A stretch of 64,000 bases of DNA from Burkholderiales bacterium (lineage in GTDB: Bacteria; Pseudomonadota; Gammaproteobacteria; Burkholderiales; SG8-39), in contig JAHDYJ010000006.1 in assembly GCA_023383795.1 (NCBI GenBank), forward strand, positions 1 through 64,000, written 5' to 3'. This document shows, piece after piece, positions 13,177-30,002 of the stretch. The position numbers and the translations under genes are program-made. The notes beneath the pieces are model-generated. The model ran no database searches. It saw nothing but the letters and a program-made list of their open reading frames with translations, and had not been told where the DNA came from. Numbering within the stretch: the first letter of the stretch is position 1; each line of letters begins with the position of its first letter.

Positions 13177-13507
13177 GCGTCAGTACGATGCCGTCGTGCC
13201 ACCGGAGGCGGCGCCTGGGATCCCGTGCGGGAGAGTGTTTCGCACGTCCGCATCTTAGCAAGCCCTGGGGGGGCGGCCGCCCACCGCGGCGGTGCCGGCG
13301 GCGAGCGGCAGTTGCGGCGCAGAATTGCCGCGGGACGGCACGGAGCGGAAGCGCCTTTCGGCTTTCCCTTGCCAAATGCGCAGAAATTTGATCAACTTTT
13401 TCGAGCTCGCGCAGCCCTTTTGGCGAAAGAGCAGACCATGACCACCGGGGGGCGTTCCCAGCCCCCGCCGGGCCGCGTGCGCCTCGACGACGAAAAGGAG
13501 GAGAGTC
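13177..13507. other. 331-base intergenic region between galE and the ABC importer operon
   Basis: This divergent gap must hold the galE promoter and the promoter of the importer operon. The half near galE is GC-rich with short hairpin-forming runs but no recognisable riboswitch. The half near the importer turns AT-rich around a palindrome-like box (13384-13400). I find no convincing open frame in it. Confidence 0.6.
13369..13400 (+). promoter_or_regulatory. Putative promoter with GntR operator, importer operon
   Basis: AAATTTGATCAACTTTT at 13384-13400 is a near-copy of the perfect 18-base palindrome that precedes the first hyuA gene. A weak sigma-70-like pair, TTGCCA at 13369-13374 and TCAACT at 13392-13397 with 17 bases between, would place the operator over the -10 element. 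The same geometry recurs at the hyu site. This suggests repression by the GntR-family protein encoded between the two operons. The operator match is seen directly; the promoter assignment is weak. Confidence 0.55.
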
Positions 13508-14755
13508 ATGAGGCTTATCGGCATCACTGCGACAGCATTGGGGATCGCCTTCGCGGCGCCCGCCCTCGCGCAGGAGGAGATCCGCATCGGGCTCTTGTAC
13601 CCCACCTCGGGAACGGCGGCCAAATCGGGCACCGAGACGCTGGAGGCGATCAAGCTCGCCTACGACATCGTGAACGGCAGCTACGACATCCCGCTGCCCT
13701 ACGCCAAGACCGCCGGCCTGCCGGGCAGGGGCGGCGCGAAGATCAAGCTCTTCATCGAAGACCACGGCGGGCGCCCGGAGCGCGGCCAGGCGATCGCCGA
13801 GCGGCTGATCACGCAGGAGAAGGTGCACATCATCCAGGGCGCGTTCCATAGCGCAGTCGCCGCACCCTCGAGCCAAGTCGCGGAGAAGTACGGCATCCCG
13901 TACGTGACCGGCTCGTCCGAGGCACCCACGCTCACCGAGCGCAGCTTCAAGACCTTCTTCAGCGTCACGCCGACCACCGAGGACATTGCCCGCGACTTCT
14001 TCACGTTCCTCGACGACCTGCGCAAGGAGAAGGGCGTTCCGCTCAAGTCGCTCGGCGTCGTTCACGTGAACGACGCCTGGGGCGCGAGCCTGGCGAAGGC
14101 CGCGGAGGGCAACTACAAGAAATACGGCTTCGACAAGCTCTCGATGATCAGCTACTCGCCGCAGGCTGCCGACCTCAGGAGCGAGGTACTCAAGCTGAAG
14201 AGCGAAGCGCCCGACATCGTGTTGCAGGCATCGTTCGACGCGGATGCGATCCTCGCGGTGCGCACCTACCAGGCGCTCGGCTTCATGCCGAAGGGGATCC
14301 TGGCAATGGGGGCGAGCTTCGCCTCGCCCGATTTCATGAAGGCGCTGGGCAAGAACGCCGACTACGCTTTCAGCCACACCAAGTTCAACCCCTCGCTGAT
14401 CGAGAAGCGGCGCGCCGCGGCGGCGGTCAACAAGCTGTACGAGCAGCGGGCCGGGCGCCAGCTCTGGGACGCGCCGGCGCGCGAGTTCACCGCCGCGCTC
14501 GTCGTCGCTGACGCGCTGAACCGCGCGAAATCGCTCAAGCCGGACGACATTATCCAGGCGCTGCGCGAGACCAACATCGACGGCGCCGACACGATCTCGC
14601 CGTACAAGGGCGTGAAGTTCAACGAGAAAGGCCAGAACGTGCTCGCGACCGGCCTGATCACGCAGATCCAGGACGGCACGCACCACCCGGTCTGGCCGAA
14701 GGATCTCGCATCCAAGCCGGTGGTGTTCCCGGCGCCCGCCTGGGACAAGCGCTGA
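13508..14755 (+). CDS. ABC transporter substrate-binding protein, branched-chain amino acid type
   Basis: 415 residues. A signal peptide ends near residue 21 (APALAQ), followed by EEIRIGLLYPTSGTAAKSG, the start of the periplasmic-binding-protein type 1 (LivK/Leu-binding) fold. ATG 13508 follows a strong AGGAGG site. It is the first gene of an operon with the two permease and two ATPase genes of the same importer, which defines its role as the periplasmic receptor. The ligand is unknown; proteins of this class often bind aromatic acids or amides rather than leucine. Confidence 0.92.
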   Translation: MRLIGITATALGIAFAAPALAQEEIRIGLLYPTSGTAAKSGTETLEAIKLAYDIVNGSYDIPLPYAKTAGLPGRGGAKIKLFIEDHGGRPERGQAIAERLITQEKVHIIQGAFHSAVAAPSSQVAEKYGIPYVTGSSEAPTLTERSFKTFFSVTPTTEDIARDFFTFLDDLRKEKGVPLKSLGVVHVNDAWGASLAKAAEGNYKKYGFDKLSMISYSPQAADLRSEVLKLKSEAPDIVLQASFDADAILAVRTYQALGFMPKGILAMGASFASPDFMKALGKNADYAFSHTKFNPSLIEKRRAAAAVNKLYEQRAGRQLWDAPAREFTAALVVADALNRAKSLKPDDIIQALRETNIDGADTISPYKGVKFNEKGQNVLATGLITQIQDGTHHPVWPKDLASKPVVFPAPAWDKR

Positions 14756-14828: not shown

Positions 14829-15686
14829 ATGATCTACGGCCAGGTTCTCGTCGACGGGCTGATTGTCGGCCTCATGTTCGCGCTGGTGGCGATGGGACTG
14901 TCGCTCATCTACGGCGTGATGAACATCGTGAACTTCGCCCACGGCGAATTCATGATGCTTTCGATGTACTTCTGCTGGTTCGCTTGGCATTTCGCCGGCG
15001 CCGATCCGCTCGTCGCCATGCCGTTCGCCGCGGTGCTGCTCTTCTTTCTGGGCGTGGCGGTCTACCGGCTGCTGATCCGCCACGTGCTCGCCCGCTCGCT
15101 GGTCGCCCAGATCTTCGCGACTTTCGGCCTGCTGCTGTTCTTCCAGGCGACCGCGCAGTTCCTGTGGAAGAGTGATGTCCGCACGATACCCACGAGCTGG
15201 GCGAGCGGCCACTTCCAGATCGCCGGGCTCTTCTTCAACGGGCCAGAGGTGGTCGCCGGCGTTGGCGCGTTGCTGACCGCGGCCGCGCTGTACTGGTTCA
15301 TCCACCGGACCGAGACCGGGCTTGCCCTGCAGGCGGTCGCGGAGGATGCGCAGGCGGCACGCCTGATGGGCATCAACGACAACCGCATGTACGCGATCGC
15401 GTGGGGCGTCGCGTGCGCCGCGGCCGCGATCGGCGGCGGACTGCTTTCGACCTACTACGCGATCGCGCCGCTCTCGGGCGCGCGCTGGGCGCTGCCCGCC
15501 TTCGTGGCGGTGGCGATCGGCGGCTTCGGATCGATCTCGGGCGCGTTCTTCGGCGGCCTGATCATCGGCGTCGTGCAGACGGCGGGCGGCTTCTTCTTCT
15601 CGCCGAACTACAAGGAGGTATTCGTCTTTGCCCTTTACCTCCTCGTCGTGTTCTGGCGCCCCTATGGGCTGCTCGGCCGCAAATGA
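14829..15686 (+). CDS. livH: Branched-chain-type ABC transporter permease LivH
   Basis: 285 residues, strongly hydrophobic, with about eight membrane segments. MGLSLIYGVMNIVNFAHGEF near the N-terminus is the LivH hallmark, and the mid-protein EDAQAARLMGIN matches the cytoplasmic loop that contacts the ATPase. Its stop overlaps the start of the next permease gene in an ATGA arrangement, indicating translational coupling. It forms the inner-membrane channel with LivM. Confidence 0.93.
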   Translation: MIYGQVLVDGLIVGLMFALVAMGLSLIYGVMNIVNFAHGEFMMLSMYFCWFAWHFAGADPLVAMPFAAVLLFFLGVAVYRLLIRHVLARSLVAQIFATFGLLLFFQATAQFLWKSDVRTIPTSWASGHFQIAGLFFNGPEVVAGVGALLTAAALYWFIHRTETGLALQAVAEDAQAARLMGINDNRMYAIAWGVACAAAAIGGGLLSTYYAIAPLSGARWALPAFVAVAIGGFGSISGAFFGGLIIGVVQTAGGFFFSPNYKEVFVFALYLLVVFWRPYGLLGRK

Positions 15687-16735
15687 GGGCCTGGCTCGCG
15701 CATCGCGTCGAGGGGCTGCCGGTCGCGGCGATCGTCATACTCGTCGCGGCGCTCGCGCTCTACCCCCTCGCCGCGACGATGCCCTTCTGGCGCCACGTCG
15801 TCATCATGTCGATGCTCTACGGCGCGATGGGCGTCGCGTGGAACATCCTCGGTGGCCTGGCCGGCCAGGTGTCGTTCGGCCACGGCTTGTACTTCGGGGT
15901 CGGGGCCTACACGGCGGCCTATTGCTACACCGCTTTCGGACTGTCGCCGATCGTCTCGCTGCCGATGGCGCTCGCGATCTCGACCGGCGCTTCGGTGCTG
16001 ATCGGGCTGCCGACCTTCCGGCTGCGGGGGCACTACTTCGTCCTGGCCTCGGTGTTCATCATGCAGAGCATCTACGTCCTGGTCTCGAACTGGGACCGCA
16101 TGGGCGGGGCGATCGGCATCGAATACCCGGTCTACAAGGCCGAGGGCATCGCCGACGCGCTCTGGCACGGCCAGTTCCCCGACAAGCTCCCCTACTATTA
16201 CGCGGCCCTCGCCCTCTTCCTGCTTGCGCTCGGCACGTTCCGCGCGATCCAGCGCTCGCGCTTCGGCATGTTCCTGGTCGCGATCCGCGAGGAGCAGGAC
16301 GCGGCGCACAGCCTCGGCGTCGACGTCGCGCGCTACAAGCTCTACGCCTTGATCGCCTCCGCGGCGGTCACGACGCTCGCCGGGACCTTCTACGCCCAGT
16401 ACGTGCTGTACGTCGAGCCGATCTCCACCGTGTCGCTGCTCGTCTCGCTCGAGATAGGGTTCATCGCGATCCTCGGAGGCATCGGCACACTATGGGGCCC
16501 TGCGCTGGGCGCCTTCGTCATCGTGCCGACGACCGAGCTGCTGCGCGCCTACCTCTCGGGACGCCTCGCCCTCGACATGTCACGACTCGCCGACGGCGGA
16601 CCCCTCGCCTGGCTCGAGTACTACGCGCTCGGCGGCGGCGGCAACGTCGACATCCTGGTCTACGGGCTCGTCATCATGCTGATCGCGCGCTTCCAGCCGG
16701 CCGGCGTGCTCGGCTTCCTGCGACGCATCGACTGA
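15683..16735 (+). CDS. livM: Branched-chain-type ABC transporter permease LivM
   Basis: 350 residues. The N-terminal membrane segments lead into WNILGGLAGQVSFGHGLYFG, the LivM signature, and REEQDAAHSLGVDVARYKL is the ATPase-coupling loop. The start overlaps the livH stop by 4 bases, which rules out the much longer upstream frame. It pairs with LivH in the importer. The spacing to livG is only 3 bases. Confidence 0.93.
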   Translation: MRAWLAHRVEGLPVAAIVILVAALALYPLAATMPFWRHVVIMSMLYGAMGVAWNILGGLAGQVSFGHGLYFGVGAYTAAYCYTAFGLSPIVSLPMALAISTGASVLIGLPTFRLRGHYFVLASVFIMQSIYVLVSNWDRMGGAIGIEYPVYKAEGIADALWHGQFPDKLPYYYAALALFLLALGTFRAIQRSRFGMFLVAIREEQDAAHSLGVDVARYKLYALIASAAVTTLAGTFYAQYVLYVEPISTVSLLVSLEIGFIAILGGIGTLWGPALGAFVIVPTTELLRAYLSGRLALDMSRLADGGPLAWLEYYALGGGGNVDILVYGLVIMLIARFQPAGVLGFLRRID

Positions 16736-16738: not shown

Positions 16739-17470
16739 ATGGCGGCGCCGCTGCTCGAGATCGCGGGACTGACCAAGCGCTTCGGCGGCGTCTACGCCAA
16801 CCGCGACGTGACGTTCGACGTGCGCCACGGCGAGATCGTCGGCCTGATCGGGCCGAATGGCGCCGGCAAGACCACGCTGTTCAACCTCGTGACCGGATTC
16901 ATCCGGCCCGACGCGGGCACGGTCCGCTTCGACGGGGCGGATGTCACCGGGATGCGGCCGGACCGGCTCTGTCATCGAGGCGTCGCCCGCACATTCCAGA
17001 TCCTGAAGCCGTTCCCGCGCCTCACGGTGGAGGAAAATGTGATGATAGGAGCGCTCGCGCGCGGCGACGCCATGGAGTCCGCGCGTGCGACCGCGCGCCG
17101 CGCGCTCGCCTCGGTCGGTCTCGAGCACAAGCGCGACGGGCTCGCGCGTGGGCTCTCCACTGGCCAGCGCAAGCGCCTCGAGATGGCGCGCGCGCTCGCG
17201 ACCGGGCCGCGGCTGCTGCTGCTCGACGAGATCACCGGCGGCGTCGACCAGCCGAGCATCCCGGGCCTGATCGACCTCGTCGGCAGCCTGCGCAGCGAGG
17301 GCCTCACGCTGCTCGTCATCGAGCACAACATGCGCGTCATCATGAGCCTCGCCGACCGCGTCGTGTTCCTGCACCTCGGCGAGAAGCTAGCCGAGGGTGC
17401 GCCGCGCGAGATCACCGCGCACCCCGAAGTGGTGTCGCTCTACCTGGGTCGCAGGCGTGACGGACACTGA
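16739..17470 (+). CDS. livG: Branched-chain-type ABC transporter ATP-binding protein LivG
   Basis: 243 residues. Walker A is GPNGAGKTT (about residues 38-46). The signature segment is LSTGQRKRLEMARAL rather than canonical LSGGQ, as is common in LivG. Walker B is LLLLDEI, followed by the switch histidine in LLVIEHNM. ARTFQILKPFPRLTVEENV is the family Q-loop region. It hydrolyses ATP together with LivF to drive import. Confidence 0.93.
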   Translation: MAAPLLEIAGLTKRFGGVYANRDVTFDVRHGEIVGLIGPNGAGKTTLFNLVTGFIRPDAGTVRFDGADVTGMRPDRLCHRGVARTFQILKPFPRLTVEENVMIGALARGDAMESARATARRALASVGLEHKRDGLARGLSTGQRKRLEMARALATGPRLLLLDEITGGVDQPSIPGLIDLVGSLRSEGLTLLVIEHNMRVIMSLADRVVFLHLGEKLAEGAPREITAHPEVVSLYLGRRRDGH

Positions 17471-17474: not shown

Positions 17475-18179
17475 ATGCTGCGCGTCGAATGCCTCGAGGT
17501 CCTGTACGGCGACTTCCAGGTGCTGTGGGACGTCTCGCTCGCGGTGCGGGAGGGCGAGATCGTGTGCCTGCTCGGTCCGAACGGCGCCGGCAAGAGCACC
17601 GTGATGAACGCGACCACTGCGCTCGTGCCCCGCCGCGCGGGGCGGGTCGTCTTCCGCGGCGAGGACCTCGCCGGTGTCCCGACGCACGAGATCGTCTCGC
17701 GTGGACTCGCGCACGTGCTGGAGCGCCGGCGGCTCTTTCCGACCCTCACAGTGCGGCAGAATCTGCTGCTCGGGGGGTACAACCCGAGCGCGCGCGGGCG
17801 GCGCGCCGAGTCGCTCGCGTGGGTCGAAAGCATGTTCCCGGTGCTCGCCGAGCGCCGCAACCAGCTTGCCGGTACCCTGTCCGGCGGCCAGCAGCAGATG
17901 GTCGCGATCGCGCGCGGCCTGATGGCGCGGCCGCGGCTGCTGATGATCGACGAGCCGTTTCTCGGGCTCGCGCCCAACGTGGTGGACGACATCCTGGCGA
18001 TGTTCGAGCGCATCAACGGCGAGGGCGTGGCGCTGCTCTTCACCGAGCAGAACGTGCAGCTCGCGCTCTCGCTTTCGCACCGCGGCTACCTGCTCGAGAG
18101 CGGCCGCATCGTCCTCGAGGGCGCCGGGCGCGAGATGCTCGAGCACGAGACCGTGCGCCACGTCTACCTCGGCCTGTGA
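17475..18179 (+). CDS. livF: Branched-chain-type ABC transporter ATP-binding protein LivF
   Basis: 234 residues. Walker A is GPNGAGKST, the signature LSGGQQQMVAIARGL and Walker B LLMIDEP; LERRRLFPTLTVRQNL is the LivF-type Q-loop region. ATG 17475 is 4 bases after the livG stop; a GTG at 17457 would overlap livG and is a weaker choice. The stop overlaps the GTG start of the GntR gene, so regulator and importer are translationally linked. Confidence 0.93.
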   Translation: MLRVECLEVLYGDFQVLWDVSLAVREGEIVCLLGPNGAGKSTVMNATTALVPRRAGRVVFRGEDLAGVPTHEIVSRGLAHVLERRRLFPTLTVRQNLLLGGYNPSARGRRAESLAWVESMFPVLAERRNQLAGTLSGGQQQMVAIARGLMARPRLLMIDEPFLGLAPNVVDDILAMFERINGEGVALLFTEQNVQLALSLSHRGYLLESGRIVLEGAGREMLEHETVRHVYLGL

Positions 18180-18990: not shown

Positions 18991-19008
18991 AAAATTTGAT
19001 CAAATTTT
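18991..19008. promoter_or_regulatory. Perfect 18-bp palindromic operator before hyuA
   Basis: AAAATTTGATCAAATTTT is a perfect inverted repeat in an otherwise GC-rich setting. It lies 20 bases after the GntR stop and 34 bases before the hyuA start. A TTGCGG...TCAAAT pair with 17-base spacing (18977-19005) puts it over a possible -10. A near-identical box precedes the importer operon at 13384-13400. FCD-type GntR proteins bind such short palindromes as dimers. Confidence 0.65.
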
Positions 19009-19042: not shown

Positions 19043-21109
19043 ATGATCCGCGTCGGTGCCGACATCGGCGGCACGTTCACCGACATCGTCTGGCTCGCGC
19101 CCGACGGCGGGTTCCGTGCGGCCAAGCTGCTGTCCACACCGGACGACTTCGGCCGCGCGATCCTCGACGGCCTGCGCGACGTGCTCGCGCGCGCCGGCGC
19201 AAGCCCGGAGATCGTGGGCGAGATCGTGCACGGCACCACCGTCGCCACCAACGCGATCCTGGAGCAGAAGGGTGCGCGCGTCGGGCTGCTCACCACCAAG
19301 GGTTTCCGCGACGTGCTCGAGATCCGGCGCGTGCGGCTCCCGGTGCTCTACGACATCCAATGGCGCAAGCCCGACCCGCTGGTGCGCCGCGAGCGCCGGC
19401 TCGAGGTGGACGAGCGCATTGGCCCCGACGGCGAGATGCGCCGGCCGCTCGACGTGGCCGGCGCGCGCGAAGCGATCGCGCAGCTGAAGGCGCTCGGCTG
19501 CGAGTCGATCGCGGTGTGCTTCCTGCACAGCTACGCGAACGCCGAGCACGAGCGCGTCGTCGGCGAGCTCGCGGCACGCGAGCTGCCCTTCGTCTCGCTC
19601 TCGTGCGACGTGCTGCCGGAGCTCAAGGAGTACGAGCGCACCGCGACGACGGTGGTCGACGCCTACGTGAAGCCGGTCGTGGGCCGATATCTTGGCGGCC
19701 TGCGCGCCCACCTCGACGCCGCCGGCGTGCGCGCGCCGCTGCTGGTGATGCAGTCCAACGGCGGCATCTTCTCCGACCGCGCGGCCGCCGACAGCCCGGT
19801 GCGCATCATCGAGAGCGGCCCGGCCGCCGGCGTCATCGCCGCAGCGGCGGCGGGGCGCGCGGCCGGGCTCGACAACGTGATCTCTTTCGACATGGGCGGC
19901 ACGACGGCCAAGGCCTCCATCGTCGAGCGCGGTGCGCTGACGCTCGCGTCGGAGTACGAGGTCGGCGGCGGCATGCACCAGGGGAGCCGCCTGATCAAGG
20001 GCAGCGGGCACCTGATCCGCGTCCCCGCGATCGATGTCGCCGAGGTCGGCGCAGGCGGCGGCTCGGTCGCGTGGATCGACGCGGGGGGCGTGCTGCGGGT
20101 CGGGCCGGACAGTGCCGGCGCCGTGCCGGGGCCGGCGTGCTACGCGCGCGGCGGCGAGCAGCCCACGGTCACCGACGCCAACCTGGTGCTCGGCTACCTG
20201 AACCCGGGCTATCTCATCGGCGGGGACCTGCGGCTCGACGCCTCGCGCGCTGAGCGCGCGCTCGCCAAGCACGTCGCCGGGCCGCTCGGCCTCGAGCTGC
20301 TCGAGGCGGCCCACGGCGTGCACCGCATCGCCAACGCGGCGATGCAGCGCGCGATCCGTTCGGTGTCGATCGAGCGCGGGCGCGATCCGCGCGACTTCAC
20401 GCTGATCGCGTTCGGCGGCAGCGGACCGGGGCACGCGGCGGGGCTCGCCGAGGTGCTCGATATCTCCCGCATCCTGGTGCCGCCGCACCCGGGGCTGTTC
20501 AGCGCGATCGGATTGCTCGCCTCCGACATCGAGCGCTTGTACACGCATTCGCTGCTGCGCGAGCTCGGCCGCGCCGACCTCGGCGCGGCCGAGGGCGTGC
20601 TGCGCGACATGGAGGCGCGCGCGCTCGCAGACCTCGGCGCCGAGGGCTTCGCGGCGGGGAGCGTCGCGCTCGAGCGCTTCGCCGACTTGCGCTACCGCAG
20701 ACAGATCTCGGAGCTCCTGCTGCCGCTGCCGGCGCGCGCGCTCGAGGAACCCGACCGCGTACGCCTCGCGCAGCGCTTCCACAACGAGCACGCGACGACC
20801 TACGGCTACGCGATGCACGACGAGCGCATCGAGATCGTCTCGCTCAAGGTGAAGGCGCGCGCGCTGCGCGAGACGACGTCCCCGGCGTGGGACTGCATGA
20901 ACGGCGCCGCGAAGACCGGCGCCGACCGGACCGCCTACTTCGGCCGCGAGCACGGCCTGCTCGCGGTCCGGGTGCTCGGGCGCGCAGCGCTCGGCGAGCA
21001 GCCGACGCCGGGGCCGCTGATCGTCGAGGAGTACGACTCGACCACCGTGGTGCCGCCGGGCTGGAGTGCCCGCCGCGGCGCGCACGGTTTCATCCATATC
21101 GAGAGGTAG
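19043..21109 (+). CDS. hyuA: Hydantoinase/oxoprolinase family subunit A (HyuA), first copy
   Basis: 688 residues. The actin-like ATPase N-terminus reads GADIGGTFTDIVW, followed by VHGTTVATNAILEQKGARVGLLTTKGF, and then the central FDMGGTTAKASIVE and VGAGGGSVAW motifs. The family hydrolyses ATP to open or carboxylate amide, lactam, hydantoin or ketone substrates together with subunit B. ATG 19043 follows a GAGGAGGAG site. It heads an operon with hyuB, an SDR, DUF3830 and a second hyuAB pair. Whether it acts on a hydantoin, a lactam or a ketone cannot be read from the sequence. Confidence 0.9.
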   Translation: MIRVGADIGGTFTDIVWLAPDGGFRAAKLLSTPDDFGRAILDGLRDVLARAGASPEIVGEIVHGTTVATNAILEQKGARVGLLTTKGFRDVLEIRRVRLPVLYDIQWRKPDPLVRRERRLEVDERIGPDGEMRRPLDVAGAREAIAQLKALGCESIAVCFLHSYANAEHERVVGELAARELPFVSLSCDVLPELKEYERTATTVVDAYVKPVVGRYLGGLRAHLDAAGVRAPLLVMQSNGGIFSDRAAADSPVRIIESGPAAGVIAAAAAGRAAGLDNVISFDMGGTTAKASIVERGALTLASEYEVGGGMHQGSRLIKGSGHLIRVPAIDVAEVGAGGGSVAWIDAGGVLRVGPDSAGAVPGPACYARGGEQPTVTDANLVLGYLNPGYLIGGDLRLDASRAERALAKHVAGPLGLELLEAAHGVHRIANAAMQRAIRSVSIERGRDPRDFTLIAFGGSGPGHAAGLAEVLDISRILVPPHPGLFSAIGLLASDIERLYTHSLLRELGRADLGAAEGVLRDMEARALADLGAEGFAAGSVALERFADLRYRRQISELLLPLPARALEEPDRVRLAQRFHNEHATTYGYAMHDERIEIVSLKVKARALRETTSPAWDCMNGAAKTGADRTAYFGREHGLLAVRVLGRAALGEQPTPGPLIVEEYDSTTVVPPGWSARRGAHGFIHIER

Positions 21110-21111
21110 CC

Positions 21112-22893
21112 ATGAGACGCGATGCGACCGCCATGGCCGGAATCGATCCGATCACCTTCGAGGTGTTGCGCACGGCGCTCGACGCCGTCGCCGACGAGAT
21201 GGCCTACACCATCGTGCGCAGCGCGCGCTCGACGATGATCAAGGACTGCATGGACTACTCCGCCTCGCTCTGCACTGCGCAGGGGGACCTGATCGCCCAG
21301 GCGGTGAACATTCCGGTGATGATGTGCTCGACGCCCGATGCGCTCCAGCCGACGATCGCGAAACTCGGCCCGACGCTCGCGCCCGGCGACTGCATCATCC
21401 TATCCGATCCGTACGAGGGCGGCTCGCACCTGCCTGACATCTTCATGTTCGTGCCGATCTTCTGGCAGGAGCGGCTGGTCGCGTTCGCCTCGACCTGCGC
21501 ACATCACGCCGACGTCGGCGGCATGGTGCCCGGCAGCGGCTCGAGCGACGCGACCGAGATCTTCCAGGAAGGCCTGCGCATCCCGAGCGTGAAGCTCTAC
21601 GAGCGCGGCCGGCCGAACGGGGCGCTTTACGAGCTGATCCTGCGCAACGTGCGCTTCCCGACGATGCTGCGCGGCGACCTCGAGGCGCAGCGCGCCGCCT
21701 GCTTGATCGGCGAGCGCGAGGTCCATCGGCTGATCGAGCGCTATGGCGTGGACACGGTGACGAATGGTATGACGGCGCTGCTCGACTACGCCGAGCGCAT
21801 CGTGCGCGAGGAGATCCGCGCGATGCCCGACGGCATATACGAGTTCACCGACTACGTCGACGAGGATGGCATGGATCCCGATCCGATCCCGATCCGCCTC
21901 CGTCTCGAGATCCGCGGGGACCGGGTGATCGCCGACTTCTCCGCGTCGGCGAAGCAGGTCCGCGGCTCGATCAACTGCTCGCTCTCGGTGACCAAGGCCT
22001 CGACCTACACCGCGGTGAAGTGCTTCTGCCGGCAGCCGTTCCCGCCGAACTCGGGTTTCTTCCGCCCGATCGAGGTGATCGCGCCCGAGGGGAGCCTGCT
22101 GAACGTCGCCTTCCCGGGTGCCACCTTCATGCGCGGGCTCACGATCTACCGCATCAACAACGTGCTCTTCGGCGCGCTCGCGCAGGCGCTGCCCGAACGC
22201 GCGATCGCGGCCGACGAGGGCGGCACCTCGATCGTGGTGATGGAGGGCCGCGACGCAGAGCGCGAGCGCTTCCTCTACATGGAGACGATCTCCGGGGCGT
22301 GGGGCGCGCGCGCCGGCGCCGACGGCATCGACTGCGCCTCGAACGTCACTGGCCTGCAGTCGAATACGCCGGTCGAGGTGCTCGAGACCGAGTATCCGAT
22401 CGAGATGGTGCAGTACGGCTTCGTGCCCGACTCCGGTGGACCTGGGCGCTACCGTGGAGGAATGTCGCTCCTGCGCGAGTACCGCTTCCTCGCCGAGTCG
22501 GGCACCCTGCAGATCCGCGCCGACCGCGTGCGCTTTGCGCCCTACGGCCTGTACGGCGGCCGGCCCGGCGGGCGCAGCGCCAACTGGCTCGACCCGGACG
22601 GCGCGAACGCAAGACTCGACTCCAAGGTCAAGAATCGCCCGATCGCACGGGGCGAGGTCGTGCGCCACATCCTGGCGGGCGGCGGGGGCTATGGCTGGAC
22701 GTTCGAGCGCGACGTGGCGGCGGTCGTCGAGGACGTGCGCGACGGCAAGGTCAGCGTAGATGGCGCGCGCCGCGACTACGGGGTCGCCCTCGACCCGACC
22801 ACGTTCGCCGTCGACGAGAGGGAAACCGCGCGCCTGCGCGCGGCGATGCGCGCTGCGGTCGACCCGGCGAATCCGCCGCTGTTCACCCGATGA
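21112..22893 (+). CDS. hyuB: Hydantoinase B/oxoprolinase family protein (HyuB), first copy
   Basis: 593 residues, the usual HyuB length. It begins IDPITFEVLRTALDAVADEM. The metal-site motifs are SDPYEGGSHLPDIFMF (about residues 102-117) and CAHHADVGGMVPGS (about 128-141). YRGGMSLLREYRF is the conserved C-terminal segment. It would bind the substrate at a metal site while HyuA supplies ATP-driven activation. It starts 3 bases after hyuA, and its stop overlaps the SDR start (ATGA). Confidence 0.9.
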   Translation: MRRDATAMAGIDPITFEVLRTALDAVADEMAYTIVRSARSTMIKDCMDYSASLCTAQGDLIAQAVNIPVMMCSTPDALQPTIAKLGPTLAPGDCIILSDPYEGGSHLPDIFMFVPIFWQERLVAFASTCAHHADVGGMVPGSGSSDATEIFQEGLRIPSVKLYERGRPNGALYELILRNVRFPTMLRGDLEAQRAACLIGEREVHRLIERYGVDTVTNGMTALLDYAERIVREEIRAMPDGIYEFTDYVDEDGMDPDPIPIRLRLEIRGDRVIADFSASAKQVRGSINCSLSVTKASTYTAVKCFCRQPFPPNSGFFRPIEVIAPEGSLLNVAFPGATFMRGLTIYRINNVLFGALAQALPERAIAADEGGTSIVVMEGRDAERERFLYMETISGAWGARAGADGIDCASNVTGLQSNTPVEVLETEYPIEMVQYGFVPDSGGPGRYRGGMSLLREYRFLAESGTLQIRADRVRFAPYGLYGGRPGGRSANWLDPDGANARLDSKVKNRPIARGEVVRHILAGGGGYGWTFERDVAAVVEDVRDGKVSVDGARRDYGVALDPTTFAVDERETARLRAAMRAAVDPANPPLFTR

Positions 22894-23636
22894 GCCGGCT
22901 CGCGAAGAAGGTGGCGATCGTCACCGGCGGCACGCGCGGGATCGGGCTCGCGATCGTGCAGGCGTTCCTGCGCGAGGGCGCCAAGGTGGTGTACTCCGGC
23001 ACCTCCGACGATAGCGTCGCACGCGCGCGCGCCGAGCTGCCTACCGGCGCCGCTGGCGAGGGCGTCGTTGCCGACCTCGCCGACCTTGCGCAGGGCGAGT
23101 TCCTGGTCGAGCGCGCCCGCGTGCGCTTCGGCGGCCTCGACGTGCTGGTGAACAATGCCGGGGTGCTGAGCCGCGCCGACGAGTGGCAGACCACGCCGGA
23201 GGACTGGGACCGCGTGATGGGCGTGAACCTGCGCACCGTATTCTTCCTCTCGCGCGAGGCCGCGAAAGCGATGAAGGCGCGTGGCGGCGGCAGCATCGTC
23301 AACATCGCGTCGGTCGCCGGGCAGATCGGCGGCATCGCTGGCAGCCCGGCCTACTCGGCCGCGAAGGCGGGCGTGATCGGCCTCACAAAATCGCTCGCGC
23401 GGCGCTTCGCGCCGCTCGGGATCCGCGTGAACGCGATCTCGCCCGCCGACATCGAGACCGACATGACCGCGGGCCTGCCGCCCGAGATCCGCGCCCGGCT
23501 CACCGCGATGACCCCGCTCGGGCGCTTCGGCGCGGTCGGGGAGGTGGTTGGCGGCGCGGTCTACCTTGCCGCCGACGAGTCGAGCTACGTCACCGGACAG
23601 ACGCTGTCGATCAACGGCGGCCTGTTCATGCCCTGA
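22890..23636 (+). CDS. Short-chain dehydrogenase/reductase (SDR)
   Basis: 248 residues, a classical SDR. The cofactor motif is TGGTRGIG, with NNAG (VNNAGVLSR), catalytic serine in NIASVAGQ, and YSAAKAG for the YxxxK pair. The C-terminus LSINGGLFMP is typical of 3-oxoacyl-ACP-reductase-like SDRs. The absence of an acidic residue straight after the second strand (YSGTSDDS) leaves NAD versus NADP preference open. Placed between hyuB and DUF3830, it probably oxidises or reduces a hydroxyl or keto group of the pathway substrate. Confidence 0.9.
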   Translation: MSRLAKKVAIVTGGTRGIGLAIVQAFLREGAKVVYSGTSDDSVARARAELPTGAAGEGVVADLADLAQGEFLVERARVRFGGLDVLVNNAGVLSRADEWQTTPEDWDRVMGVNLRTVFFLSREAAKAMKARGGGSIVNIASVAGQIGGIAGSPAYSAAKAGVIGLTKSLARRFAPLGIRVNAISPADIETDMTAGLPPEIRARLTAMTPLGRFGAVGEVVGGAVYLAADESSYVTGQTLSINGGLFMP

Positions 23637-23667
23637 AGAGCGTCACTCACAAAGGAGACTCGAGCAC

Positions 23668-24105
23668 ATGGCCAAGCTGGAATTCAAGATGGCGAAAGGC
23701 GGCGTGTTCGTCGCGGACATCTTCGCCGACAAGGTGCCGCAGACCTGGAAGCTCGTCACCGCGTTCCTGCCGAAGACGATGAAGGCGTACAACGCGCGCT
23801 GGTCGGGCCGCGAGACGCACACGCCGCTCGCGCTGCCGACCAAGCCGCCGCGCGAGAACCAGACCTGCCAGGTCGGCATCGGCGACGTCATCTACGGCTA
23901 CGAGTACCCCGACGGCCGCGAGTACACCGGCTTCGAGGCGATCGGCTGGTTCTACGCCGCCGAGACCGTGCGCGACTGGCGCGGCTACTTCCCGATCAAC
24001 CACATCGGCCGCGTGCAGCCGCAGTTCTGGCCGCTGATCGAGGAGGTCGGCGTGCGCGTCTGGAAGGAGGGCGGCGAGGACTGCACGATCCGCGTGATCG
24101 AGTAG
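23668..24105 (+). CDS. DUF3830 family protein, cyclophilin-like fold
   Basis: 145 residues. Family features are YNARWSGRETHTPL (about residues 41-54), PPRENQTCQVGIGDVIYG and FPINHIGRV. DUF3830 proteins adopt a cyclophilin-like barrel, but no isomerase or enzymatic activity is established to my knowledge. ATG 23668 follows AAAGGAG with good spacing. It lies in the operon between an SDR and a second hyuA, so it is likely a pathway component such as a lyase, isomerase or small ligand-binding subunit. That role is inference from position only. Confidence 0.8.
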   Translation: MAKLEFKMAKGGVFVADIFADKVPQTWKLVTAFLPKTMKAYNARWSGRETHTPLALPTKPPRENQTCQVGIGDVIYGYEYPDGREYTGFEAIGWFYAAETVRDWRGYFPINHIGRVQPQFWPLIEEVGVRVWKEGGEDCTIRVIE

Positions 24106-24118
24106 GCCGAACGCGTCC

Positions 24119-26203
24119 ATGTACACGGTCGCAGTGGACATCGGCGGGACGTTCACCGACGTCTTCGCCGTCGACGCCGGGAGCGGGCGCGCCGCGATGG
24201 GCAAGGCGCTGACGACGCCGGCCGACCTGCAGCGCGGCGTGCTCGACGGGCTCGCCCACGCCGCGGGGAGCCTCGGCGTCACGCTGCCCGAGCTCCTCGC
24301 CGGGGCCGAGCGCATGGTCCACGCGACCACGCAGTCCTCGAACGCGGTGTTCGCGTTCAGCGGCGCGAAGACCGCCGTGTTGACGACCCGCGGCTTCGGC
24401 GACACGCTGCTCATCATGCGCGCGACCGGGCGCGTGGCCGGGCGCTCGGTGTTCGAGCGTCACCACTACCGCGCGACCGACAAGCCGCGCCTGCTCGCCG
24501 ACGAGCGCGACGTCTTCGAGATCGTCGAGCGCGTCGACCACCGCGGACGTGTCGTCGTGCCGCTCGACGCGGCTGCGGTGCGCGCCGCTGTGCGCGCGAT
24601 CCGCGATCGCGGCTATCGCGCGGTGGCGGTGGCGTACCTCTTCTCGCACCAGAACCCGGCACACGAGCGGCGCACCGCCGAGCTCGTCGCCGAGGAGGCG
24701 CCCGACCTCTACGTGTCGCTCTCGTCGGAGGTCGCGCCGGTCATCGGCGAGTACGAGCGCTCGGCGACCGCGCTCTTCAACGCCTACGTCGGGCCGGTCA
24801 TGGAAGGCTACCTCGCGCGCCTCGAGGCCGCGCTCGTCGACGCGGGCCTGAAGCAGAAGCTCCTGATCGTGCAGGCGAACGGCGGCGTCACCACCACCGC
24901 GCAGGTGGTGCCGATCTTCACCGTCGAGTCGGGCCCGGCGGCCGGCGTGGTCGGCGCCGCGCACCTCGCGCGCGCGCTCGGCACGCCGAACGTGATCGCG
25001 ACCGACGTCGGCGGCACCACCTTCAAGGTCGCGCTGGTGCGCGACGGCGAGTGGAGCTACAGCCGCGAGACCGTGCTCAACCAGTACCAGCTGCGGCTGC
25101 CGATGGTCGACGTCGCCTCGATCGGGGCGGGCGGCGGCTCGATCGCCTGGGTCGACGGGCGGCGGCTGCGCGTCGGGCCGCAGAGCGCGGGCGCCGACCC
25201 CGGCCCGGCGTGCTACGGCCTCGGCGGCGAGGCGCCCACGGTCACCGACGCCGACGTCGTGCTCGGCTATCTCTCGCCCGAGCGTTTTCTCGGGGGGCGC
25301 ATGCGGCTCCATCCGGAGCGCGCGCGCGAGGCGATCCGGGCGCACGTCGCCGCGGCGCTCTACGACGGCGACGCGCTCGCCGCCGCCGCCGGCATCCGCC
25401 AGGTCGTCGACAGCCAGATGGCCGACCTCATCCGCAAGGTGACGCTCGAGCGCGGCTACGATCCGCGCGAGTTCGCGATGATGGCCTACGGCGGCTGCGG
25501 CCCCGCGCACGCGTGCTCGTACGGCGCCGACGCCGGCGTCGCCGAGATCGTCGTGCCGTTCTTCGCCACCGTGCACTCGGCGTACGGCGCGGCGCTCTCG
25601 GACGTGCGCTTCAGCCTGCGCCACTCCGAGCCGATCGTGCTGCCTGTCGACGCCGCGCGGCTCGAGGCGATCTACCGGGCAATGGAGGCGCGCGGCGCCC
25701 AAGAGCTCGCGCTCGCCGAGGTTGCCGCCGCGCGGCGCGTCTATCGCCGCTGGGTGGAGGCACGCTTCCGCCGGCAGGTGCACCTCGTGCGCATCGACGC
25801 GCCGGCCGAGTTCGACGAGGCGGCGATCGCGGCGCTGCCGGCCGCCTTCGAGCGGGAGTACGTGCGGCTCTTCGGCCCCGGCTCAGCGCTCGCCGACGCC
25901 GGCATCGAGCTCGTCAACTACGGCGTCGACGCGATCGGCCAGGTGGCGAAGCCCGCGCTCGCGGTGGCCGCGCCCGGCGGTGCGCCGTCGCCGCGCGCCG
26001 AGCGCCCGGTCTGGTGCCCGGTCCGCCGCGACATGCGCGCGACGCCGATCTACGACGGCCTCGCGCTCGCCGCCGGCGCCGAGATCGCCGGGCCGGCGGT
26101 CATCGAGCATCCGGGCACGACGATCGTGGTGCTCGATGGCCAGCGCGCGACGATCGACGCCGGGCGTCATACGCACATCCACGTCGCGCCCCCGAAGGCA
26201 TGA
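24119..26203 (+). CDS. hyuA: Hydantoinase/oxoprolinase family subunit A (HyuA), second copy
   Basis: 694 residues with VAVDIGGTFTDVFAVDA at the N-terminus, VHATTQSSNAVFAFSGAKTA, ATDVGGTTFKVALV and IGAGGGSIAWVDG in the same order as the first copy. The two HyuA proteins are clearly paralogous but diverged (for example HATTQSSN against HGTTVATN), so they probably serve different substrates or steps. It starts 13 bases after DUF3830 and its stop overlaps an ATG of the following hyuB. Confidence 0.9.
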   Translation: MYTVAVDIGGTFTDVFAVDAGSGRAAMGKALTTPADLQRGVLDGLAHAAGSLGVTLPELLAGAERMVHATTQSSNAVFAFSGAKTAVLTTRGFGDTLLIMRATGRVAGRSVFERHHYRATDKPRLLADERDVFEIVERVDHRGRVVVPLDAAAVRAAVRAIRDRGYRAVAVAYLFSHQNPAHERRTAELVAEEAPDLYVSLSSEVAPVIGEYERSATALFNAYVGPVMEGYLARLEAALVDAGLKQKLLIVQANGGVTTTAQVVPIFTVESGPAAGVVGAAHLARALGTPNVIATDVGGTTFKVALVRDGEWSYSRETVLNQYQLRLPMVDVASIGAGGGSIAWVDGRRLRVGPQSAGADPGPACYGLGGEAPTVTDADVVLGYLSPERFLGGRMRLHPERAREAIRAHVAAALYDGDALAAAAGIRQVVDSQMADLIRKVTLERGYDPREFAMMAYGGCGPAHACSYGADAGVAEIVVPFFATVHSAYGAALSDVRFSLRHSEPIVLPVDAARLEAIYRAMEARGAQELALAEVAAARRVYRRWVEARFRRQVHLVRIDAPAEFDEAAIAALPAAFEREYVRLFGPGSALADAGIELVNYGVDAIGQVAKPALAVAAPGGAPSPRAERPVWCPVRRDMRATPIYDGLALAAGAEIAGPAVIEHPGTTIVVLDGQRATIDAGRHTHIHVAPPKA

Positions 26204-26214
26204 GAGAGGGACGC

Positions 26215-28386
26215 ATGCTGCAGCGGACCGCCACCGACCCCGCCACCTTCGAGGTGCTGAACCACCGCCTCCTCAACATCGTCGAGGAGATGGGCATCCA
26301 GTACATGCGCTGCTCGGGCTCGAACGTGCTCATCACCGGCAACGACGCCGCGACCGCGATCATGCGGCCCGACGGCGCTCTCGTCTCGGTAGGGCCGTAC
26401 ATCGTCACCCAGGGCAACGTGCTGCCGCTGATCGTCGAGAGCACGATGCGCCTCTCGCAAGACGTCGGCTGGGCCGACGGCGACATCTTCATCTGCAACG
26501 ACCCGTACCTCGGCGCGATCCACGCACCCGACTTCGCCACTGTGGCGCCGATCTACCACGCGGGCGAGCTCGTCGCCTGGCTCGGCGCCTCCGGCCACCA
26601 GCTCGACACCGGCGGCATGGACCCGGGCGGCTTCTCGGTGAAGGCCGTCGACGTGCACCAGGAGGGGCTGCGCATGCCGCCGGTGAAGATTGCCGAGGCT
26701 GGCCGGGTGCGCGAGGACGTCTACCGCTGGATCATCAACCAGGTGCGCGACCCGCTAGTCGGCCTCGACGTGCGCGGCCAGATCGCGGCGTTGAACGCCG
26801 GTCGTCGCCGCATCCTCGAGCTGATCAAGGAGTGGGGCGTGGCGACGGTGAAGGCGGTGATGCAGCGCTCGATCGACCACGCGCGCGAGAAGCTCGGCGC
26901 GCGGCTCGCGGAGCTCCCCGACGGCGAGTGGCGCGACGTGCAGTACATCGACCACGACGGCCACGCGCCCGAGATCTACAAGATCGTCTGCACGATGCGC
27001 AAGTCAGGCGAGCGCCTCGCGTTCGACTTCGCCGGCACCAGCCCCAACGCGCGTGGCCTCATCAACTCGACCTGGTCGGGCCTGCAGGCCGCGGTGCTCT
27101 CCTCGGTCTACATCAACCTGTGCTGGGATATCCCGTGGAACCGCGGCGTGCGCGACTGCGTCGACATCCGCGCCGAGCCGGGCACGGTCAACAACTGCGC
27201 CTACCCGGCGCCGTGCGCGATGGCGACGATCTCGGCGGTGATCGTGACGATCGACGTCGTCTGGCGCTGCCTCGCGCAGCTGCTGCTGGCGGGCGACCGC
27301 CACGCCGGCCAGGCGATGGCGAACTGGTCGGGCACCTCGATGGCGCCGATCTTCGCCGGCACGAGCCAGCACGGCTTCCGCTTCGCCGCCACCGAGATGA
27401 GCCACTTCGGTGGCGGCGGCGGCGCGCGCGTCGACGCCGACGGCGTCGACACCTCGGGCATCGTGTTCAACACCACGCCGAACGTGCCGAACATCGAGGA
27501 CCAGGAGGCCGAGTACCCGGTACTTTATCTCTTCCGCCGGCACCTGCGCGACTCGGGCGGGCCGGGCACGTTCCGCGGCGGCCGCGCGGGCGAGCTCGCG
27601 TACACGGTGTACGACGCGCCCGAAGAGCGCCTCGAGGGCCTGTTCGCCGGCACCGGCGCCGAGATGCCGAACGCGCTCGGCCTCGCGGGCGGGCTGCCGG
27701 GCGCCGCGATCCGCGTCGCGCGCGTGGTCGAGACCGACCTCGCGGCGCGGCTCGCGCGCGGCGCGCCGCTGCCTGCGCGGCTCGAGGACGTCGCCGGGCG
27801 GCGCGAGATCCTCGAGTGCAAGCACGAGCGCTCGCCGATCCTCGCCGGCGAGGTCTGGTACCACAGCTGGCAGGCGGGCGGCGGCTACGGTGATCCGCTC
27901 GGGCGCGATCCGGCGCGCGTCGCCGAGGACCTCGCGCGCGGCGCGGTGTCGCCCGAGGCCGCCGAGACGATCTACGGTGTGGCGCTCGTCGCGGGCGCCC
28001 CCGACGCGGCGGCGACCGCGCGCAGGCGCGACGGGCTGCGCGCCGCGCGCCTGGCGCAGGCGAAACCTGTCGCGTCGGGTGATGCGGCGCTCGTGTTCTC
28101 CGGCGCCGGCACCCACCGGTTCGGCGATGCGTTCGTGCTCGACGCCGGCGCAGTCTGCTGCGGGCGTTGCGGCACCCGGCTCGGCGTCGCCGGCGAGAAC
28201 CTGCTGCCGGGCCTGAAGGAATGGATCGCCCCGCTCGCCGCCGCCGGCCCGGTGCGCGGCGAGGACTACGACCGCGGCCGCTTCGGCCTGCGCTTCCTGC
28301 TCTGCCCGCACTGCGGGACTACGCTCGACGCGCAGCTGGCACACGCCGGAGCGCCGCGACCTGCGATGCGCGTAGAGCACCGCTGA
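26215..28386 (+). CDS. hyuB: Hydantoinase B-like protein with C-terminal zinc ribbon, second copy
   Basis: 723 residues, about 130 longer than the first HyuB. The HyuB body starts TDPATFEVLNHRLLNIVEEMG; metal-site motifs are NDPYLGAIHAPDFA and SGHQLDTGG, where the usual HH is GH. Beyond about residue 600 an extra domain carries two cysteine pairs, CCGRCGTRLG and LLCPHCGTTL, a likely zinc ribbon. A separate zinc-binding small subunit occurs in acetone carboxylases, so a carboxylase-like enzyme is one reading. ATG 26215 has GAGAGGGA upstream; ATG 26200, overlapping the hyuA stop, is the alternative. Confidence 0.87.
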   Translation: MLQRTATDPATFEVLNHRLLNIVEEMGIQYMRCSGSNVLITGNDAATAIMRPDGALVSVGPYIVTQGNVLPLIVESTMRLSQDVGWADGDIFICNDPYLGAIHAPDFATVAPIYHAGELVAWLGASGHQLDTGGMDPGGFSVKAVDVHQEGLRMPPVKIAEAGRVREDVYRWIINQVRDPLVGLDVRGQIAALNAGRRRILELIKEWGVATVKAVMQRSIDHAREKLGARLAELPDGEWRDVQYIDHDGHAPEIYKIVCTMRKSGERLAFDFAGTSPNARGLINSTWSGLQAAVLSSVYINLCWDIPWNRGVRDCVDIRAEPGTVNNCAYPAPCAMATISAVIVTIDVVWRCLAQLLLAGDRHAGQAMANWSGTSMAPIFAGTSQHGFRFAATEMSHFGGGGGARVDADGVDTSGIVFNTTPNVPNIEDQEAEYPVLYLFRRHLRDSGGPGTFRGGRAGELAYTVYDAPEERLEGLFAGTGAEMPNALGLAGGLPGAAIRVARVVETDLAARLARGAPLPARLEDVAGRREILECKHERSPILAGEVWYHSWQAGGGYGDPLGRDPARVAEDLARGAVSPEAAETIYGVALVAGAPDAAATARRRDGLRAARLAQAKPVASGDAALVFSGAGTHRFGDAFVLDAGAVCCGRCGTRLGVAGENLLPGLKEWIAPLAAAGPVRGEDYDRGRFGLRFLLCPHCGTTLDAQLAHAGAPRPAMRVEHR

Positions 28387-28428
28387 ACGAAGAGCTTTCC
28401 CTGCAGCACGACAAAGGAGGAGGACACC

Positions 28429-29421
28429 ATGACCCGCTGGATACGTTCCTGCATCGCGCTAGCCGCGGCGCTCGCGCTGTGCGCGCCGGCCGTCGCGCAG
28501 ACGCTGAACCTGCGCTTCGCCACGCTCGCGCCCGACACGTTTCCGTACGTCGACGGGATGAAGAAGTTCAAGGAGGTGGTCGAGAAGAGCTCGAACGGCG
28601 AGATCAAGGTCTCGCTGCATACCGCCGGCTCGCTCGGCGCCGAGCGCGAGATCAACGAGGCGATTCTCGAGGGCACCATCCACCTCGGCATCGGCGCCGG
28701 CGCGATGGCGAACCTCGCCCCCATCTACAACATCGTGCAGATCCCGTTCCTGATCCAGGGCCAGAAGCACATGGCCGCGGTGGCCGACGGTCCGATCGGC
28801 GCCGAGCTCGCCAAGCGCATCGAGAAGCAGGCGGGTTTCCGCGTGCTCGGCTGGTGGAGCACCGGCGACAGCGCGATCGAGTCCACCAACCGGCCGATCA
28901 AGTCGCCCGCCGACATGAAGGGGCTCAAGATCCGCGTGATCGAGAACCCGGCGCTGATCGACACGATGCGCGCGCTCGGCGCGAACCCGACGCCGATGCC
29001 GCTCACCGAGGTCTACACCGGGCTCAAGCAGGGCGTCATCGAGGGCGCGCACCTCGACGTGGTGCTGGTGCACGCGCTGAAGGCCTACGAGGCGCTCAAG
29101 TACATGACCGACTGGGAGCAGATCACGTTCCTCTCCGAGCCGCGCCCGGTCATCATGAAGGCGAGCTACTTCGACGGGCTGCCGAAGAAGCACCAGGACG
29201 CGATCCGCGCGGCGGTGCGCGACGCCACCGTGCACGAGCGTCAGGTGTTCGCCGAGAAGATGAAGTCGATTCGCGGCATCCTGATCAAGGAGGGCATGCA
29301 GATCACCAAGGTCGACCGCGACGCCTTCCTCAACCAGGTCAAGCCGGTGTGGGAGAAGTATGCGGCCAAGCTCCAGGCCGAGGACCTGCTGAAGCAGATC
29401 ATCGCCGCGCGGCCCAAGTGA
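28429..29421 (+). CDS. dctP: TRAP transporter substrate-binding protein (DctP family)
   Basis: 330 residues. A signal peptide ends at about residue 23 (CAPAVAQ), followed by TLNLRFATLAPDTFPY. The central TNRPIKSPADMKGLKIRVIENP holds the arginine that usually pairs with the ligand carboxylate in DctP proteins. ATG 28429 follows AAAGGAGGAGG. It is the periplasmic receptor for the dctQ and dctM genes that follow. It closes the hyu block, suggesting uptake of the same or a related organic acid. Confidence 0.92.
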   Translation: MTRWIRSCIALAAALALCAPAVAQTLNLRFATLAPDTFPYVDGMKKFKEVVEKSSNGEIKVSLHTAGSLGAEREINEAILEGTIHLGIGAGAMANLAPIYNIVQIPFLIQGQKHMAAVADGPIGAELAKRIEKQAGFRVLGWWSTGDSAIESTNRPIKSPADMKGLKIRVIENPALIDTMRALGANPTPMPLTEVYTGLKQGVIEGAHLDVVLVHALKAYEALKYMTDWEQITFLSEPRPVIMKASYFDGLPKKHQDAIRAAVRDATVHERQVFAEKMKSIRGILIKEGMQITKVDRDAFLNQVKPVWEKYAAKLQAEDLLKQIIAARPK

Positions 29422-29479: not shown

Positions 29480-29992
29480 GTGGCTGCTTATTCCGAGCCG
29501 CCGCGCGCGGTGACGCGCGCGCTCGATCTCCTGATCGGGCGGCTTTGCCTGTGGGTCGCGGTCATGGTGCTCGCGGCCGCGTTCGCGGTCGTCTGCGCGC
29601 AGGTGTTCGCGCGCTACGTGCTGAACGACAGCCTGATCTGGGCCGAGGAGCTCACCCGCTTCCTGGTCGTCTGGAGCACGATGATCGGCTCGGCCGCGGC
29701 CTACCGGCGCGGCGAGCACATCGGCATCACGATGGTGCTCGACAAGCTCGCTGGCGCGTGGCGCGGGACCGTCGTGCGCGCGATCCACCTGCTGGTGCTC
29801 GCCTTCGCGAGCATGGTCGCGTGGGAGGGATGGCACCTCACGATGCGCAACTTCGCGCGCAACCAGCTCGCCCCGGCAATGCAGGTCGACATCGCCTGGG
29901 CGTACCTCGCGCTGCCGATCGGGGGTTTTCTGATCGCGCTCGCCGCGGCAGAGGCGCTCTGGCGCGGCGCCGCGCCGACCAAGGAGCCGTGA
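29480..29992 (+). CDS. dctQ: TRAP transporter small permease (DctQ)
   Basis: 170 residues with four membrane segments. FARYVLNDSLIWAEELTRFLVVWSTM is the DctQ signature, including the EE pair. The start is taken as GTG 29480, 58 bases after dctP, since no ATG with a better site is in frame. It forms the transporter with DctM, 10 bases downstream. Confidence 0.88.
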   Translation: MAAYSEPPRAVTRALDLLIGRLCLWVAVMVLAAAFAVVCAQVFARYVLNDSLIWAEELTRFLVVWSTMIGSAAAYRRGEHIGITMVLDKLAGAWRGTVVRAIHLLVLAFASMVAWEGWHLTMRNFARNQLAPAMQVDIAWAYLALPIGGFLIALAAAEALWRGAAPTKEP

Positions 29993-30002
29993 GGGCGCGG
30001 CG

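Follow-up and report, generated by a model that had tools for sequence, protein, structure and literature searches.

The locus described here raises the question of why a single bacterial operon should carry two HyuA/HyuB pairs together with an SDR oxidoreductase and a DUF3830 protein. In the large hydantoinase/ketone-carboxylase family few members have a known reaction, and it is uncertain whether a given enzyme should be annotated as Hyd, Apc or Acx (PMC5214803). A preliminary description of the window (the whole stretch of DNA analysed, 64,000 nt) reported six genes packed with overlaps or gaps of less than 60 bases between an ABC and a TRAP importer, took the two pairs to be diverged and non-redundant, and read them as successive ATP-driven steps on a cyclic amide, imide or ketone. 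The packing is borne out below; the reading of the pairs is altered.

Layout of the locus and its candidate regulon

The six genes hyuA1-hyuB1-SDR-DUF3830-hyuA2-hyuB2 occupy 19043-28386 with a spacing of -4 to 31 bp (2 bp before hyuB1, -4 before the SDR, 31 before DUF3830, 13 before hyuA2 and -4 before hyuB2), and dctP begins 42 bp past hyuB2. A LivKHMGF-GntR block flanks the cluster upstream and a DctPQM TRAP importer downstream. Pfam assigns Hydantoinase_A to both HyuA proteins (4e-94 for hyuA1, 1e-84 for hyuA2), HyuB to both HyuB proteins (1.9e-176 and 9e-119) and adh_short_C2 to the SDR (1.8e-60). The features are as follows; the loci and genome of relatives named in them are discussed further on.

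13384..13399, no strand: operator-like palindrome AAATTTGATCAACTTT ahead of livK, differing by 1 mismatch from that at 18992
13508..14755, + strand: livK, ABC substrate-binding protein (Peripla_BP_6); Pfam 1e-53; 47-50% to livK of L038 and L081
14829..15686, + strand: livH permease; Pfam BPD_transp_2 3.7e-41
15683..16735, + strand: livM permease; translation matches livM-type reading frames of L038/L081; start placed by ATG overlap with livH
16739..17470, + strand: livG ATPase; Pfam ABC_tran 5e-34 and BCA_ABC_TP_C
17475..18179, + strand: livF ATPase; translation matches livF-type reading frames of L038/L081
18176..18970, + strand: GntR/FCD transcriptional regulator; Pfam GntR 1.8e-16, FCD 3.5e-19; putative GTG start
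18992..19007, no strand: perfect palindrome AAATTTGATCAAATTT, 16 bp, between the GntR gene and hyuA1; window and genome scans
19043..21109, + strand: hyuA1, 688 aa, hydantoinase/lactamase-type ATP-binding subunit, accessory; Pfam; 7hk5 1.2e-137; CapA 528 vs ApcC 263 bits
21112..22893, + strand: hyuB1, 593 aa, hydantoinase/lactamase-type metal subunit, accessory; 7hk5 1.6e-95; CapB 329 vs ApcD 134 bits; gamma-less HyuB branch
22890..23636, + strand: SDR oxidoreductase, 248 aa; Pfam; orthologs of 54-81% in 3 other genomes
23668..24105, + strand: DUF3830 protein, 145 aa, divergent subfamily, probably of cyclophilin-like fold; PF12903 48.2 bits; 3kop profile 2.5e-10; low-confidence model with Foldseek matches to KslB and 3kop
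24119..26203, + strand: hyuA2, 694 aa, ATP-binding subunit grouping with HyuA of gamma-partnered enzymes; CapA 525, ApcC 409 bits; tree
26200..28386, + strand: hyuB2, 728 aa, Apc-beta-like subunit fused to a gamma-like domain; ApcD 246 vs CapB 186 bits; 5l9w_A 2.6e-64; tree
28045..28386, + strand: gamma-like domain of hyuB2, CxxC...CxxC; aligns at 31% with a stand-alone acetone carboxylase gamma protein; Acx/Apc gamma chains fill the first five Foldseek places; cysteines kept in 4/4 orthologs
28429..29421, + strand: dctP, TRAP solute-binding protein; Pfam 1.2e-71; 67% to the DctP adjoining A2B2gamma in G1367
29480..29992, + strand: dctQ, TRAP small permease, start uncertain; 48.8% to G1367 DctQ, which matches PF04290
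30003..31286, + strand: dctM, TRAP large permease; Pfam 3.7e-110; 65% to G1367 DctM

The source genome has 10 Hydantoinase_A matches and the window contig is the only one with two. No ligand of LivK or DctP is named by their nearest solved relatives. Beyond dctM, at 31418-36613, lie a divergent LysR gene, a CaiB-type CoA transferase (closest model succinate-glutarate CoA transferase), an acyl-CoA dehydrogenase and a TPP enzyme. The last three (32451-36613) were considered as a lower pathway, set aside and treated as a separate LysR unit; a CaiB match was found in 54 of 61 genomes of the family, none of the three regions read having close relatives of the window's other genes.

The palindrome before hyuA1 is shared with the region upstream of livK. 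Allowing up to 3 mismatches, the window holds 2 matches against 0.00 expected and the 4.9-Mb genome holds 4, only the livK and hyuA1 sites being at 0-1 mismatch, and the reversed palindrome, used as a control, gave 0 matches in the whole genome. These matches suggest one regulon, for which the GntR/FCD protein is, by its position, the candidate binder. Among 81 loci the 12-base core of the palindrome was found in 1, at the window's own site, which fits the presence of XRE/cupin or LysR regulators near the relatives. Two XRE/cupin regulators (L081, L093), 58% identical, lie near the SDR and DUF3830 genes in two genomes, and the window has GntR/FCD instead. A promoter scan returned 0 sites.

The two HyuA/HyuB pairs and the C-terminal domain of HyuB2

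The nearest solved relative of both subunits of the first pair (A1B1) is the N-methylhydantoinase 7hk5. Their best NCBIfam models are those of caprolactamase, at 528 (CapA) and 329 (CapB) bits, both far below the curated cut-off of 1000, and A1 scores 206 bits on ApcA. The pair consists of two genes only, alpha then beta, with the SDR next and without gamma, as expected of Hyd; in this, and in keeping its metal ligands and ATP motifs, it resembles CapAB and N-methylhydantoinase. The phosphate motifs DIGGTFTD and DMGGT are present in A1, and alignment places the D, HLPD and H metal ligands in B1 (D/H/D/H ligand list from PMC8453981). The second pair (A2B2) likewise retains its ATP motifs and metal ligands.

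The best solved relative of B2 is the acetophenone carboxylase delta chain (5l9w_A, 2.6e-64), with Acx at 9.7e-34 (5m45_A). B2 scores 246 bits on ApcD versus 186 on CapB, the ApcD score being far below the equivalog cut-off of 1500, and A2 is intermediate, at 525 bits on CapA and 409 on ApcC (NCBIfam). The last 113 of the 728 aa of B2 contain two CxxC motifs about 45 aa apart, and all four cysteines are kept in 4/4 orthologs (window included). This tail gave no gamma match in Pfam or NCBIfam and none by phmmer against the PDB. It aligns at 31% over 72 aa (E 3e-7) with a stand-alone haloarchaeal protein of Natronosalvus annotated as acetone carboxylase gamma, which itself matches PF08882 Acetone_carb_G (7e-12) and ApcB (1e-8). 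When the predicted structure of the tail (pLDDT 69.9) was compared with the PDB by Foldseek, the first five matches were 5svc, 5svb twice and 5m45 (acetone carboxylase gamma) and 5l9w (acetophenone carboxylase gamma), with a probability of 1.00 that falls to 0.13 for the sixth and with weak E-values (0.012-0.026). Sequence and predicted fold together indicate that the C-terminal domain of B2 is homologous to the gamma subunit of acetone and acetophenone carboxylases. Like the shared palindrome and the place of A1B1 outside the conserved core, this domain had gone unnoticed in the preliminary description. Gamma marks Apc and Acx, Hyd complexes being without it, and has been placed far from the active site (PMC5214803).

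Phylogenetic analysis separates the pairs. A HyuB tree of 22 rows splits at 100/100 into 10 rows that group with B2 and 12 that group with B1, and in a HyuA tree of 23 rows, which has more open forks, A2 groups with the partners of the B2 branch at 98/95; the A1 and A2 groups share only 36-41% identity. These values uphold the view of two diverged, non-redundant pairs. In the B2 branch gamma is fused or encoded by the next gene in 8 of 10 rows: fused in the window, L036, L038 and R. pseudokoreensis, and the next gene in Natronosalvus, Haloterrigena, Haladaptatus and G940. None of the six B1-branch rows in which the next gene was read carries it. One B2-branch row, from L075, ends at a contig end, so that gamma cannot be judged there; L075 (contig C167 of the source genome) is the genome's second HyuAB pair of the gamma branch, truncated where the contig stops. 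The R. opacus HyuB (L065:10094-12403) has a gamma-like C-terminal extension which, judged by eye, is degenerate, most of the zinc-binding cysteines being gone.

On plasmids, genes of a ketone type adjoin several of these relatives. The R. opacus locus reads SDR-hyuA-hyuB-SDR-acyl-CoA ligase, the hyuAB-gamma set of Haloterrigena adjoins genes for an acetoacetate decarboxylase, an AMP-binding protein and acyl-CoA functions, that of Haladaptatus occurs with butanediol dehydrogenase and SDRs, and in Rhodococcus hyuA-hyuBgamma is followed by a CoA transferase with an HMG-CoA lyase nearby. Two of these plasmids, both haloarchaeal (L066, L067), combine a hyuAB lacking gamma with a hyuAB-gamma set in a stretch of about 14 kb alongside the ketone-type genes, and these paired sets echo the arrangement in the window.

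DUF3830 and the recurrence of the locus

The DUF3830 protein of the window belongs to PF12903 (48.2 bits against a gathering cut-off of 26, E 1.5e-12), with a profile match to the DUF3830 structure 3kop. It is divergent, at 26-29% to the main types of the family with the same core residues, and is conserved within its own group. Its best structural matches are 3kop and the Pictet-Spenglerases KslB and McbB, the latter at a Foldseek E-value of 5.7e-5 and a VIA Z of 9.1 on a poor model (pLDDT 48.6) and at a profile E-value of 0.51. The fold is probably cyclophilin-like, as far as such a model can tell, and the structural matches count as leads; a role as a C-N bond enzyme is speculative and likewise a lead only.

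A scan of contigs with this protein gave 15 matching stretches, 3 of them encoding relatives, and a search of genomes added one more. The latter found it in 2 of 347 genomes in the taxonomic order of G764 (G764 and G1367), 1 of 43 in that of G766 (itself) and 1 of 369 in the window's class (itself). Window-type DUF3830 is thereby seen in five genomes: the window's, G764, G765, G766 and G1367. Across the five, A2 with B2gamma occurs in 4, an SDR linked to DUF3830 in 4, Liv, TRAP and RidA each in 3, and FAH and A1B1 each in 2. Identity to the window is 68-78% for A2, 70-82% for B2, 54-81% for the SDR and 49-78% for DUF3830.

G764, an alphaproteobacterial MAG (L036), has all six genes in the same order (A1-B1-SDR-DUF3830-A2-B2gamma, then a triple-RidA protein) at 77-87% amino-acid identity and with changes mainly at third positions, and the window cluster is therefore not a chance assembly. 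This short contig ends too early to judge importers and has no FAH gene. In G766 (L038/L093) DUF3830-SDR-XRE/cupin is divergent from A2-B2gamma-FAH-LivKHMGF-RidA(triple)-DctQ-DctM, which runs up to the contig end; its DctM is only 39.5% like that of the window. G1367 has the set on two contigs (L081/L091), with SDR-livKHM-DUF3830-livGF-XRE/cupin on one and RidA-DctPQM-A2-B2gamma-FAH, with a divergent LysR gene, on the other. The exception to the linkage of DUF3830 with A2B2 is G765 (Bradyrhizobium, L037:10001-10438), where DUF3830 stands alone beside a sugar-type ABC system and no A2B2 ortholog was found (best HyuB 31%). That the core set recurs in shuffled arrangements speaks for a functional link and against mere inheritance of gene order. 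The triple-RidA fusions (L036:9679-10803 and L093:11821-12882) are 47% identical and linked to B2gamma in two genomes, and the G766 FAH is closest to 2,4-didehydro-3-deoxy-L-rhamnonate hydrolase and HpaG/HpcE decarboxylases; neither the RidA nor the FAH of the relatives was found in the window.

Neither G766 (best 49% and 40%) nor G1367, where B2 was used as query and the pair read is at 37.5/30.6%, showed orthologs of A1 and B1, absences that may come from incomplete assemblies. With A1B1 in only two of five genomes, the pair is accessory, and the core consists of A2B2gamma, the SDR, DUF3830 and the importers. The locus type represents a rare, recurring putative breakdown pathway with its own importers.

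Main-type DUF3830 was found in 11 of 399 genomes of the window's taxonomic order (source genome included), and nine of these loci were surveyed (L026-L034; L019 was excluded as its contig has only a fragment). Their 112 reading frames include 4 Amidohydro_1, 3 Amidase, 2 AtzD/TrzD and 8 ABC ATPases, a descriptive count and not an enrichment, as well as xanthine-dehydrogenase-type genes and an M20 hydrolase; none of the nine has a HyuA or HyuB match. In three of three haloarchaeal plasmids read (L021, L022, L035) main-type DUF3830 adjoins amidohydrolase and/or M20 hydrolase genes, and urate degradation genes are near it in two. A survey of DUF3830 neighbourhoods, proposed in the preliminary description, thus links the window type to HyuAB (A2B2gamma in 4/5 genomes) and the main type to none (0/9 loci), so that the window protein is HyuAB-linked rather than AtzD/amidase/allantoinase-linked. 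The family as a general HyuAB marker is ruled out by the same nine loci.

A candidate pathway, its rivals and known systems

We tentatively read the locus as an import-and-catabolism regulon for what we infer to be an N-containing organic acid, with candidate carboxylation of a ketone by A2B2gamma, and put the chances of this at close to even. LivKHMGF or DctPQM would import the substrate, and the GntR/FCD protein would work through the palindromes ahead of livK and hyuA1. By analogy with its family, A1B1 would act on a cyclic amide, imide or ureide, spending ATP to phosphorylate its carbonyl oxygen and hydrolysing it at the B1 metal. DUF3830, whose family occurs next to ring-opening amidohydrolases, might then handle a C-N step, such as isomerisation or imine or ring opening, which is speculative. 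The SDR would yield a ketone, and the linked RidA-type enamine/imine hydrolases of three other genomes could do likewise from the nitrogen side. A2B2gamma, activating a ketone enol and bicarbonate with ATP, may form a beta-keto acid, as acetone and acetophenone carboxylases do, and C-C cleavage may follow by the FAH-type hydrolase/decarboxylase present in two relatives. The carboxylase reading is favoured by the ketone-type genes beside A2B2gamma relatives, the gamma domain and the branch placement; C-C cleavage is favoured because the FAH relatives (2,4-diketo acid hydrolases and HpaG-type decarboxylases) act on the type of product that a ketone carboxylase could make. The recurrence of the core and the two palindromes also support the reading. 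A2B2gamma probably fixes CO2, and a further hydrolase that opens rings is the less likely role for it. What counts most against carboxylation is that A2 scores high on CapA and that alpha-prime and epsilon subunits are missing, on account of which sequence does not settle the reaction of A2B2gamma. Further points against are the lack of a gamma match for the B2 tail in Pfam or NCBIfam, its weak Foldseek E-values, the lack of a CoA ligase or thiolase in the operon and the failure to find RidA and FAH in the window. The nearest published puzzle, a HyuAB that resembles Apc-beta and has no assigned function, comes from an aminophenol microcompartment locus of actinobacteria and likewise speaks against carboxylation (PMC10470539).

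Both pairs could instead be ATP-dependent amidohydrolases acting in succession on a cyclic amide, imide or ureide, the gamma-like domain being purely structural. The intact ATP motifs and metal ligands of both pairs agree with this, as do the caprolactamase alpha model as the best for A2 (525 bits), the amidohydrolases, amidases and AtzD/TrzD ring-opening enzymes near main-type DUF3830, and the distance of gamma from the active site. Against it, B2 lies in the gamma-partnered branch with an ApcD score above that for CapB, Hyd enzymes are without gamma (PMC5214803), and two of the four genomes with the core showed no A1B1 orthologs, so that a pair of steps is not needed; we consider it rather unlikely. 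The same observations count against the earlier view of two like successive steps. The substrate class then proposed, a cyclic amide, imide or ketone, keeps its ketone for A2B2, which an amide or imide fits less well.

A diketo-acid route, in which the SDR oxidises a hydroxy-keto acid, FAH splits a 2,4-diketo acid, enamines are removed by RidA and the Hyu pairs do no more than open the ring of the substrate, would account for the relatives of the G766 FAH, the recurrence of the SDR with FAH and the linked TRAP-type acid importer. It is distinctly unlikely, since it leaves the gamma domain unexplained and neither FAH nor RidA was found in the window, nor FAH on the short G764 contig. That the pairs are redundant duplicates in an ordinary catabolic operon assembled by chance gains something from the abundance of hyu genes in the source genome (the 10 HyuA matches). 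The low identity of the A1 and A2 groups and the dedicated palindrome tell against it, and it was rejected, as very improbable, on the 100/100 HyuB split and the conservation of both pairs in the distant G764 genome, where third-position changes dominate. A more specific version of the carboxylase reading has a cyclic-amide hydrolase opening an N-heterocycle, DUF3830 cleaving C-N in a reversed Pictet-Spengler-type reaction, and a one-kinase, beta-gamma-fused carboxylase of the Apc branch adding CO2 to a ketone without alpha-prime or epsilon; as a whole this is unlikely.

Ped of Aromatoleum aromaticum is an SDR. The Apc system of that organism (apcABCDE with Ped and Bal) shares the ATP-binding alpha, the beta and the four-cysteine gamma parts with the window, and the wider apc gene cluster also encodes a secondary-alcohol dehydrogenase (PMC5214803, PMC4729919). 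B2 provides both an Apc/Acx-branch beta-type subunit and, as a fused domain, the four-cysteine gamma. The window differs in this single beta-gamma polypeptide, in its extra hydantoinase-type pair and DUF3830, in its own ABC and TRAP importers and in having no CoA ligase in the operon; alpha-prime and epsilon genes and the apcABCD(E) order are absent from 19043-31286, A1 having its own partner B1. Acx (acxABC) likewise has one kinase-type, one beta-type and one gamma part, but B2 is closer to Apc, and with gamma fused the three separate genes are not found. The claim that no described pathway has exactly this set stands within the open-licence literature searched, where none was found and DUF3830 was not mentioned: the HyuAB, DUF3830 and SDR families are known, and their combination and the fusion were not found described there.

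One operon thus joins a member from each side of the hydantoinase/ketone-carboxylase family, with a diagnosable beta-gamma fusion, and supplies a functional context for DUF3830. Its regulator has two candidate sites to act on, and the binding proteins of both importers lend themselves to ligand screening. If the more specific version of the pathway is true, A2B2gamma would represent a new class of carboxylase working without alpha-prime and epsilon.
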